This document shows, one piece after another, positions 49,575-53,353 of a stretch of 64,000 nucleotides of DNA. Made by a program: the position numbers and the translations under genes. Positions within the stretch are counted from its first letter, which is position 1. Each line of letters starts with the position of its first letter. Source of the DNA: Acidobacteriota bacterium (GTDB lineage Bacteria; Acidobacteriota; Holophagae; Holophagales; Holophagaceae); the NCBI GenBank assembly GCA_016213735.1, contig JACQZU010000022.1:185171-249170 (forward strand), read 5' to 3'. The notes beneath the pieces are model-generated. The model did not search any database. It was not told where the DNA came from and saw nothing but the letters and a program-made list of their open reading frames with translations.

Positions 49575-50714
49575 CTACTTCATCAACTCCCGGGCGATGA
49601 CCATGCGCTGGATCTCGGAGGTGCCCTCGTAGATGGTCGTGACCCGGACGTCGCGATAGAGGCGTTCCACCACGTACTCACGGGAGTAGCCGTAGCCCCC
49701 GAAGACCTGCACGGCCCGGTCGCAGATCCAGGAGCCCATCTCCGTCGCGAAGAGTTTGGCGGTGGCCGCCTCGACGGTGCAGGTGCGCCCGGCGTCCTTC
49801 ATGGCCGCCGCCTTGAAGGTGAGCAGGCGGGCCGCCTGGACCCGGGCCTCCATCTCCGCCAGGTAGGTCTGGATGGCCTGGTGCTCGCCGATGATCCGGC
49901 CGAAGGTTTTTCGGGTTTTGGCGTACTTCACGGACTCGTCGAGGGCGCGCTGGCCGATGCCCAGGGCCTGGGCCGCGATCCCGATGCGCCCGCCGTCCAG
50001 GCCGCCGAAGGCCACCTTCAGGCCCTCCCCGGGCCGGCCCAGCAGGGCGTCCTGGGGAACGAAGGCGTCCTCCAGGCTGACCATGACGGTGTTGGAGGAG
50101 CGCAGGCCCATCTTGTCCTCGGGCTTCCCGGCCCGGAAGCCGGGCTGGGCCGCGTCCAGCACGAAGGAGCTGATGCCGCGCTTGCCCTGGGCCGGGTCCG
50201 TGACCGCCATGGTGACGAAGTACTTGCCGACGCCCCCGTTGGTGATCCAGGCCTTGGACCCGTTCAGGACCCAGCCGCCCTCCACGGGCGTGGCCCGGGT
50301 CTTGATGGCGGCGGCGTCGGACCCGGCGTCGGGCTCCGTGAGCATGAAGCCTCCGATCTCCTTCCCGCTGGCCAGGGGCACCAGGTATTTCTGCTTCTGG
50401 GCTTCGGTGCCAAAGGCCAGGATGGGCGCGCAGGCCACGGAGTTGTTCACGCTCATGCTCACCGCCACCGAGGCATCCGCGTAGGCGATCTGTTCCAGGG
50501 CCAGGGCGTAGGAGATGGTGTCCAGGCCCGCGCCTCCATAGGCCTCGGGCACCATCATCCCCATGAAGCCCATCTCCCCCAGCTGGCGGATGATCCCGCC
50601 GGGGAACTCGTGGGCCTGGTCCCGGGCCGTGGCACCGGGCTCGATCTCGGCCATGGCGAAGTCCCGGGCCGCCTGTTGGATGGCGAGCTGGTCGTCCGTG
50701 AGGATGGGGTACAT
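49575..50714 (-). CDS. Acyl-CoA dehydrogenase (short-chain type)
   Basis: FAD enzyme of 379 residues. Motifs are FMLTEPDAGSDAAAI, WVLNGSKAWITNGG, MGLRSSNTVMVSLEDAFVP, the QVFGGYGYSREYVVERLYRD block and catalytic Glu363 in YEGTSEIQRMVIAREL. This pattern is that of butyryl-/short-chain acyl-CoA dehydrogenases. The ATG at 50714 follows AAGGAG. It is on the same strand, 44 bases after the LipB-NUDIX gene. Confidence 0.93.
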   Translation of the reverse strand: MYPILTDDQLAIQQAARDFAMAEIEPGATARDQAHEFPGGIIRQLGEMGFMGMMVPEAYGGAGLDTISYALALEQIAYADASVAVSMSVNNSVACAPILAFGTEAQKQKYLVPLASGKEIGGFMLTEPDAGSDAAAIKTRATPVEGGWVLNGSKAWITNGGVGKYFVTMAVTDPAQGKRGISSFVLDAAQPGFRAGKPEDKMGLRSSNTVMVSLEDAFVPQDALLGRPGEGLKVAFGGLDGGRIGIAAQALGIGQRALDESVKYAKTRKTFGRIIGEHQAIQTYLAEMEARVQAARLLTFKAAAMKDAGRTCTVEAATAKLFATEMGSWICDRAVQVFGGYGYSREYVVERLYRDVRVTTIYEGTSEIQRMVIARELMK

Positions 50715-50758: not shown

Positions 50759-51898
50759 TCAGGTCAGGGAGGGAAGGGAGCCGCCGAGCTCCCGTGCCAG
50801 AAGGCCCAGGGCCGCCCGGCTGCCTTCCCACCGCATCAGGGCCTTGGCCTCGGGGACGCTGCACCAGCGGTGTTCACTGTGCTCAGAAGGGTCCAGGCGC
50901 AGCTCCTGGTCCCCCTCCACCTCCATGTGAAAGCAGGTCTCCGTGTTGAAGCGGGGCTCGTCGTCGGGAAAGCGGATCAGGGCCGGGTCCACCCAGAAGC
51001 TGTGGACGAGGCCCAGGGGCCTGAGGGTCCCGCGGAGACCGGTTTCCTCCAGGACTTCCCGGTGGGCGGCGGCCTCGGGTTCCTCACCGTCCTCCAGCAT
51101 CCCGGTGACGCTGGACCACCAGAGGCCCTGGTCCGGCTGCCGAAGCATCATCAGAACTTCGGGTCCTCCGGGGCCGCGCCGCCAGGTGAGGGCGTTCACG
51201 CTGCGGCTGGGAGGGCGGCAGGGCAGGGGGTCCAGGTCCAGGACGTCCACGAGATGACCGGCGAGGGCCCGGGCCGCCTGGTCCGGGTCGGGGGCGGAAG
51301 GCCCCAGCAGGGAGTGCATGGAGCAGACCCCTTTGTCCGGGATCCCGCAGGGGGTGATCCAGCGGTACCGGGAGAGGTCGGGGTCCACGTTGAAGGCGAT
51401 GCCGTGGGTGGTGATCCACCGGCGCAGGTGGAGGCCCACCGCTCCCAGCTTTTCCGGCCCCCGGGCCGTATCCACCCAGATGCCGGGATGTTCGGGGATC
51501 CGGTAGGCGGCGATGCTCCAATCGGCGGCCGTCCGGATCATGGCCTCCTCCAGGCCCCGCACGAGCCTGCCCAGGTCGGCCCGGGAACCTTGGAGGTTGC
51601 AGATGGGGTAGACCACCACCTGGCCTGGGCCGTGGTACGTCACTTGGCCGCCGCGGTCCGTCTCATGCAGGCTCACCCCTGCCTCCGCCAGGAAGGCGTC
51701 CGTGACATGGATGTCGGCCCGGGTGGCATTGCGCCCAAGGGTGAACACCGGATCGTGTCCGAGAAGCAGGATCTGGTCCGGCCGCCCCTCCCGGGCCACG
51801 AAGTCGGCCAGGCCCTGCTGCATCCGGAGCCCCGCAGGGTAGAACACCTGCCCCAGATGACGGATCTGGGCAGGGCGGCGCGAACCGGCATCGGACAT
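50759..51898 (-). CDS. lipB: Octanoyltransferase LipB fused to a NUDIX hydrolase domain
   Basis: A two-domain protein of 379 residues. Residues 1 to about 232 are LipB, which moves octanoyl from acyl carrier protein to lipoyl domains: DRGGQVTYHGPGQ, KLGAVGLHLRRWITTHGIAFNV with the catalytic Lys, and TPCGIPDKGVCSM with the catalytic Cys. Residues about 236-379 are NUDIX, with a perfect GX5EX7REVLEETGL box (GMLEDGEEPEAAAHRE...). The joint (PSRSVNALTWRRG) has no stop or frameshift, and the reading continues straight across. Usual LipB is about 210-240 residues, so the C-terminal domain is a true addition. What the NUDIX part hydrolyses is unknown. It is divergent from the Ser/Thr kinase gene with a gap of only 42 bases. 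Confidence 0.93.
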   Translation of the reverse strand: MSDAGSRRPAQIRHLGQVFYPAGLRMQQGLADFVAREGRPDQILLLGHDPVFTLGRNATRADIHVTDAFLAEAGVSLHETDRGGQVTYHGPGQVVVYPICNLQGSRADLGRLVRGLEEAMIRTAADWSIAAYRIPEHPGIWVDTARGPEKLGAVGLHLRRWITTHGIAFNVDPDLSRYRWITPCGIPDKGVCSMHSLLGPSAPDPDQAARALAGHLVDVLDLDPLPCRPPSRSVNALTWRRGPGGPEVLMMLRQPDQGLWWSSVTGMLEDGEEPEAAAHREVLEETGLRGTLRPLGLVHSFWVDPALIRFPDDEPRFNTETCFHMEVEGDQELRLDPSEHSEHRWCSVPEAKALMRWEGSRAALGLLARELGGSLPSLT

Positions 51899-51940: not shown

Positions 51941-53353
51941 ATGGGACTCGACCCCACCTCCATCGGCCGGTACGTGGTTCTGGGCCCCCTCGGCCAGGGA
52001 GCCATGGGGACCGTGTACCTTGCCGAGGATCCCGTCCTGAAGCGGGGCGTCGCCGTGAAGGTGGTCAACGCGGGGCAACTCGGCAAGGAGGAGGCCCTGA
52101 GGCGCTTCCGGCGGGAGGCGGAAATCAGCGCGCGGCTGAACCACCCCAACGTCATCACCATCTTCGACGTGGGAGACGAGCCCAAGCTCGGGCCCTTCAT
52201 GGCCATGGAATTCATCGAGGGCGAGACCCTCGAGGAACTTCTGGCCGCCGGTCCCCTGGATCCCTCCAAGGTCATGGAGGTGCTTGTGCAGGCCGGGGAG
52301 GCCCTGGACGCGGCCCATGCCCTGGGGATCGTGCACCGGGACGTGAAGCCCGCCAACCTCATGGTGGCCAAGGACGGTCGGGTCAAGCTGATGGACTTCG
52401 GCATCGCCCGGGAGGAGGAGAAGCCCCATACCACGGAGGCCCTGCTTTGCACCCCGGGCTTCGCGGCTCCGGAGTTGTTGGACGGCGCCCCCGCCTCCCC
52501 GGCCTCGGACCGCTGGGCCCTTGCCATCACGGCCTACCAGTGCCTCTTCAGGAGCAACCCCTTCGAGGGCGAGAACCTCAGCGTCGTCCTCTACAACGTC
52601 GCCCACCGGGCCCCCTCCTTCCAGCCCGACATGTCCCCGGTTCTCGAAGGCGTCTTCCGCAAGGCCCTCTCCCGGCTGCCGGCGGACCGCTTCCCGGACA
52701 TCCCCTCCTTCCTGGAGGCCCTGGCCGGCGCCCTCCCTCTGGAAGAGGCCGTTCGGCGGCGCCTCCAGGCCTACCTGGCGCGGGACCCCGTGGCGCCCCT
52801 CCCGTCCAAGGCCCCGACTCAGGCCCCCTTCCGGAATTCCCCGATCGGGCCCCGGGCCCTCTGGGCCGCTGGGCTGCTGGTGCTCGCCCTGCTCGCCTAC
52901 CTCGGCATGCGGGAGGGCCTGCTCTTCGGCCGGACGCTCCGCCTCGAGTCCGTGCCGGACGGTGGGGACGTCTTCGTGGACGGCAGGAGGATGGGCCGGA
53001 CCCCCCTCCTGGAACTCCGGGTGCCACCCTGGGCCGAACAGATCAGGGTCCAGAAGGCCAACCACCGCCCCTTCATCCACGATCTCAAGGACGGGGAATC
53101 GGGCCTCCGTTTCCACCTCGAGCCGGTGACCTTCTCGGTGGACGTGCGAAGCGATCCCGAGGGGGCCCGGGTGTACCTGGACGGAAAGGAGGTGGGGGAG
53201 ACCCCCCTTCTCGGCCTGCAGGTGCCCGAAGGGGGGGATCACCTCCTCATGTTGATGGCGGAGGGTCGGGAGTCCTGGGCGGCCCCCATCGGGCCTTCCA
53301 GGCGGCCCCCGGAAAGGATCCAGCTGCGCATATCCCCCCGAAAGGGGCCCTGA
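51941..53353 (+). CDS. Ser/Thr protein kinase with C-terminal PEGA domains
   Basis: Membrane-anchored Hanks-type kinase of 470 residues. The kinase domain (about 8-275) has GPLGQGAMGTVYLA, VAVKVV, HRDVKPANLM (catalytic Asp134) and DFGIAREE. The activation-loop/APE region is APELLDGAP. A membrane helix lies at about 307-324. Two PEGA-like repeats follow outside (SVPDGGDVFVDGRRMGRTPLLEL; DPEGARVYLDGKEVGETPLLGL), which probably bind cell-wall or surface ligands. The ATG at 51941 gives a protein that starts at the kinase fold; the open frame upstream is antisense to lipB. Confidence 0.92.
   Translation: MGLDPTSIGRYVVLGPLGQGAMGTVYLAEDPVLKRGVAVKVVNAGQLGKEEALRRFRREAEISARLNHPNVITIFDVGDEPKLGPFMAMEFIEGETLEELLAAGPLDPSKVMEVLVQAGEALDAAHALGIVHRDVKPANLMVAKDGRVKLMDFGIAREEEKPHTTEALLCTPGFAAPELLDGAPASPASDRWALAITAYQCLFRSNPFEGENLSVVLYNVAHRAPSFQPDMSPVLEGVFRKALSRLPADRFPDIPSFLEALAGALPLEEAVRRRLQAYLARDPVAPLPSKAPTQAPFRNSPIGPRALWAAGLLVLALLAYLGMREGLLFGRTLRLESVPDGGDVFVDGRRMGRTPLLELRVPPWAEQIRVQKANHRPFIHDLKDGESGLRFHLEPVTFSVDVRSDPEGARVYLDGKEVGETPLLGLQVPEGGDHLLMLMAEGRESWAAPIGPSRRPPERIQLRISPRKGP

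Follow-up and report, generated by a model that had tools for sequence, protein, structure and literature searches.

A conserved fusion of a LipB-type octanoyltransferase with a NudB-like NUDIX hydrolase in Holophagaceae and five further families of Acidobacteriota

In a genome of the family Holophagaceae (Acidobacteriota; contig JACQZU010000022.1, positions 185,171 to 249,170), the 64,000 bp stretch analysed here as the window contains one open reading frame that appeared to join a LipB octanoyltransferase to a NUDIX hydrolase. This raises the questions of whether the joined gene is genuine and what a NUDIX domain might do on a LipB protein. The features of the gene are as follows:

50759..51898, minus strand: lipB-nudix fusion gene, an ORF of 379 aa with orthologues
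51233..51877, minus strand: LipB octanoyltransferase half, residues 8-222, from Pfam and NCBIfam matches and the fold of PDB 2qhs
51449..51451, minus strand: LipB Lys150, probable catalytic lysine, invariant in 27 orthologues
51347..51349, minus strand: LipB Cys184, probable catalytic cysteine, invariant in 27 orthologues
50786..51208, minus strand: NUDIX hydrolase half, NudB-like, residues 231-371, from domain, profile and fold matches
51035..51103, minus strand: NUDIX box GX5EX7REVLEETG, residues 266-288, from sequence and alignment

The frame runs from an ATG start without a single internal stop, and Pfam placed LplA-B_cat at residues 24-214 (6.9e-35) and NUDIX at residues 234-358 (2.2e-18). 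The joint is short: in the AlphaFold model residues 222-225 form the final strand of LipB and residues 231-242 the first of NUDIX, and the protein is a single confident chain (pLDDT 94-98 over the joint, pTM 0.90). Purifying selection acts on both halves, the median dN/dS within one genus being about 0.11 for LipB and about 0.14 for NUDIX. The ORF, the Pfam matches and the invariant residues given below thus bear out the original prediction of a fusion with both domains and intact motifs.

Among 77 Holophagaceae genomes the fusion was matched in 73, including 48 of the 48 good ones, and 70 of the 77 carry both halves. Three matches were partial: that in G064 ends 1 base from the contig end, that in G075 begins at contig base 3, and in G017 two parts of the fusion lie on two contigs. 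A frameshift or misassembly, the artefact with which the original prediction had to reckon, is ruled out by the orthologues in these 73 genomes and in five more families. The latter (f25, f32, f40, f77 and f83) came from a 347-genome sample of the phylum and show this architecture with 37-45% identity, LipB-NUDIX being present in every listed member of each; most other families with a match in this sample have a stand-alone LipB. Within the fused families the two halves were never seen as separate genes. Neither of the two remaining families of the class gave a match to the full-length fusion query, and four of their genomes each contain a more distant LplA/LipB-type protein, found in a PF21948 search. 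In plasmid records no place covered 80% of the query and those listed were LipB halves only, viral contigs gave no match to the fusion, and a scan of genome contigs returned 12 loci, apparently all of the same family as the source. The architecture search proposed at the outset therefore places the fusion in six families of one phylum and shows that it is not an oddity of one genome. No description of a LipB-NUDIX architecture was found in the open-access literature searched. We conclude that lipB-nudix is a real, conserved two-domain protein, a new architecture made from known parts.

In a LipB tree the Holophagaceae fusions formed one strong clade. A single origin of all fusions was not rejected (AU p 0.27), nor was it shown by the LipB tree, and the NUDIX tree was weakly resolved, with 28/79 support for the fused group and long branches. 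Two genomes of 1.2 Mb, about one third of the usual size (G001 and G002; loci L074 and L075), have retained the fusion in full, with about 45% identity; FolB is present and HPPK absent in G001, and HPPK is present and FolB absent in G002.

The N-terminal half passed the LipB equivalog cut-offs of TIGR00214 (142.9 versus 83.55) and PRK14345 (158 versus 155). K150 and C184, which we take to have the catalytic roles of their counterparts in the LipB family, do not vary among 27 diverse orthologues, and neither do H89, G83-G84 and H165; the fold matches those of 2qhs (TMt 0.92) and 1w66 (TMt 0.87). All 28 fused genomes that were checked, the source genome among them, have the fusion as their sole LplA/LipB-family protein, and all 28 likewise encode GcvH. 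Every testable feature of LipB was found, and the N-terminal half is LipB, for which octanoyl transfer is the activity predicted from its sequence.

The C-terminal half has a full NUDIX box, and a comparison of 27 diverse orthologues showed E281, E284, E285 and E339 to be unchanged throughout. Among NCBIfam families NF006961 (NudB) had the most matches, hitting 24 of the 24 orthologues scanned, and the best PDB match of the NUDIX profile was E. coli NudB (2o1c, 1e-21), which scored 80.5 bits versus 56 bits for Ap4A hydrolases. A residue-by-residue comparison, which counted 13 fused rows, with invariance taken from the other alignments, aligned R253, W261, T265, E281 and E284 with NudB R29, W36, T40, E56 and E59, and E285, E320, E339 and H340 with NudB E60, E100, E117 and H118. 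W357 falls beside NudB W136 in an uncertain register; Q37 is mostly kept, Y91 is not kept and Lys7 is not aligned. In NudB, R29, T40 and E100 take part in substrate docking and E56, E60 and E117 are metal ligands (PMC5526541). The NudB equivalog cut-off of 103 bits was failed by the NUDIX domain alone (64.6) and by the whole protein (61.2), and no fused member passed it; for this reason the NUDIX half is not filed as NudB. The NUDIX domain was modelled with a pLDDT of 93.6 (AlphaFold), and Foldseek ranked NudB (5u7e, TMt 0.81) and Ap4A hydrolases (CT771, TMt 0.80) alike, so that fold comparison was dropped as a way to fix the substrate. The comparison with characterised NUDIX subfamilies that had been called for hence gave NudB as the closest. 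As judged from sequence, the assignment of the NUDIX half to a NudB-like subfamily is good, and this NUDIX hydrolase probably works like NudB.

A link of this subfamily to folate was provided by a second fusion, in which a NudB-like NUDIX domain lies N-terminal to the dihydropteroate synthase FolP in two f32 genomes:

L089:1384-2754, plus strand: NUDIX-FolP fusion (Pfam, NCBIfam)
L090:628-1971, minus strand: NUDIX-FolP fusion (Pfam)

Both genomes carry LipB-NUDIX too. The NUDIX-FolP fusions therefore tie the NUDIX subfamily to folate independently of the LipB fusion. Strong NudB-like matches in 55 genomes were LipB fusions, the stand-alone NudB of f12 and the NUDIX-FolP of f32, and other unfused relatives had weaker NUDIX matches only (best 6e-12). 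Stand-alone NudB over the cut-off was found in 3 of the 55 genomes, all of f12 (G101:C12, locus L152; G324:C40; G394:C52). In all three it lies about 9-12 kb from gcvH.

FolE was found in 55 of 55 genomes and FolK (HPPK) in 53 of 55, fused and unfused alike, and their presence was uninformative as a discriminating test. Most unfused relatives that have folE and folK are without a NudB-like protein, and thus the phylum does not generally need NudB. FolB acts after NudB in the classical folate pathway. It was found in only 5 of the 55 genomes, among them 1 of the 28 fused ones, and is absent from the source genome, a count that went against a simple folate model. PTPS proteins were found in all genomes searched, and ExxHGH was readable in those of the source genome (contig C14), G004, G140, G151, G154 and G181, as well as G119, G298, G331, G400 and several unfused genomes. 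This motif is the signature of PTPS-III, and the PTPS-III route makes the FolK substrate directly, bypassing NudB and FolB (PMC5041015). PTPS-III-like proteins are likely to substitute for FolB here, and NudB may not be needed where PTPS-III makes the FolK substrate. Two Holophagaceae loci (L191, on contig C14 of the source genome, and L209) encode a divergent PTPS-like protein with the motif QExRHGHNW (ExxHGH); this protein is distinct from a QueD-like copy, in which the motif reads CxxxHGH.

The fusion is flanked in the window by two genes:

49578..50714, minus strand: acyl-CoA dehydrogenase gene, directly downstream of the fusion on the same strand, with a gap of about 44 bp
51941-53353, plus strand: protein-kinase-like gene, divergent from the fusion

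The acyl-CoA dehydrogenase gene is likely co-transcribed with the fusion and is found downstream of it at L074 as well. The protein-kinase-like gene encodes PEGA-like repeats toward its C-terminal end, and a similar kinase gene adjoins the fusion at L032. At several non-Holophagaceae loci one conserved gene set lies directly upstream of the fusion; at L063 these genes encode E1, E1 and lipoyl-E2 of a 2-oxoacid dehydrogenase (Pfam), the identities at the other loci being those of BLAST similarity rather than of per-locus family searches. At L064 lipA (lipoyl synthase) is directly downstream. No folate gene was seen adjoining the fusion. Of five f25 genomes, four have folK about 15-23 kb away from it (G298:C61, G131:C45, G347:C10 and G119:C10), which may be only conserved gene order.

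We propose, with a probability of about 0.5, that the fusion is a bifunctional LipB/NudB-like enzyme. The LipB half would move octanoyl from acyl carrier protein, through a Lys/Cys acyl-enzyme, onto the lipoyl domains of GcvH and 2-oxoacid dehydrogenase E2, and LipA would then insert sulfur. The NUDIX half would be an active Mg-dependent pyrophosphohydrolase of the NudB subfamily, which most likely cuts dihydroneopterin triphosphate (DHNTP), the FolE product, to the monophosphate and pyrophosphate, or else a closely related triphosphate. On the single chain the active sites of LipB and NUDIX are probably independent, and the halves are perhaps kept joined because both cofactors, lipoyl-GcvH and tetrahydrofolate, serve the glycine cleavage system. 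We regard as improbable a stronger form of this proposal, in which the fusion would serve expressly to couple lipoate attachment with pterin and folate synthesis, matching the supply of the two glycine cleavage cofactors, furnishing these bacteria with their missing DHNTP diphosphatase and feeding a monophosphate-using PTPS-type enzyme and not FolB.

The NUDIX half might instead be a hydrolase of Ap4A type or of damaged nucleotides, a housecleaning domain on LipB that is unrelated to folate. By fold, CT771 and other Ap4A hydrolases match the domain just as well as NudB does, E. coli NudB itself is noted to fall in a cluster with ApnA hydrolases and ApnA was not assayed as a substrate for it (PMC5389931), and PTPS-III-like proteins could make NudB dispensable; however, the profile puts NudB over the Ap4A hydrolases, the residues of R29, T40 and E100 type are kept in the fusion but differ in human Ap4A hydrolase, and the NUDIX-FolP fusions point toward folate. 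We hold this to be possible but rather unlikely. The original prediction had suggested that the NUDIX domain may act near lipoylation, clearing for example an acyl-adenylate or CoA-type compound; another such role would be to sense a nucleotide and so regulate LipB. The domain is joined to LipB in all fused families, lies near the E1-E1-E2 genes in some, and is placed relative to LipB with high predicted confidence in the model cited above. Yet the NCBIfam and PDB lists contain no CoA-hydrolase NUDIX family, which leaves a CoA-hydrolase or acyl-adenylate role without family support while all 24 orthologues match NudB; an LplA, the enzyme expected to produce lipoyl-AMP, is not seen in the source genome, and the kept catalytic residues argue for an enzyme over a sensor. 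A part for the NUDIX half in lipoylation thus seems a poor prospect.

A plain fusion of neighbouring genes, also entertained in the original prediction, would leave both halves active and functionally uncoupled. Such a fusion may describe how the protein arose. In favour of uncoupled halves, unfused relatives do well with LipB on its own and in most cases without any NudB-like protein, and no sign of coupling was obtained. As an account of what has been kept it is very unlikely, with both halves under purifying selection, the architecture maintained over six families at 37-45% identity with no split version there, and a single origin not rejected. The bifunctional LipB/NudB-like enzyme is the reading that we prefer. 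If the substrate differs from DHNTP, the fusion is still a stable architecture in six families of one phylum, which plain-LipB annotation would hide. A 2007 comparative study counted the DHNTP diphosphatase gene among those not yet found in the majority of bacterial genomes (PMC1971073); the NudB-like domain on the sole LipB of several families, together with its NUDIX-FolP relative, is an easily assayed candidate for this enzyme and for an unexpected link between two cofactor pathways.

Compared with known systems, the fusion resembles LipB octanoyltransferases (2qhs, 1w66) over the whole domain, in the catalytic Lys and Cys, the equivalog scores and the fold, but ordinary LipB is a single-domain protein and the fusion adds a C-terminal NUDIX domain. 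With NudB/FolQ of E. coli (2o1c, 5u7e) it shares the NUDIX box, the metal ligands E56/E60/E117 and the substrate contacts R29, T40 and E100, and NudB is its best family and PDB match by sequence; it differs in its identity of about 30%, in falling under the equivalog cut-off, in not keeping Tyr91, in being joined to LipB, and in that most host genomes are without FolB. Ap4A hydrolases (human NUDT2, CT771) match it in fold about as well as NudB does and share the NUDIX box and the E-H motif at E117/H118, whereas the human enzyme is without equivalents of R29, T40 and E100 and the profile score is lower. NUDIX-FolP of f32 belongs to the same NUDIX subfamily, with 31-39% identity in the rows compared and the same conserved residues, but its NUDIX domain is N-terminal and its partner is dihydropteroate synthase.
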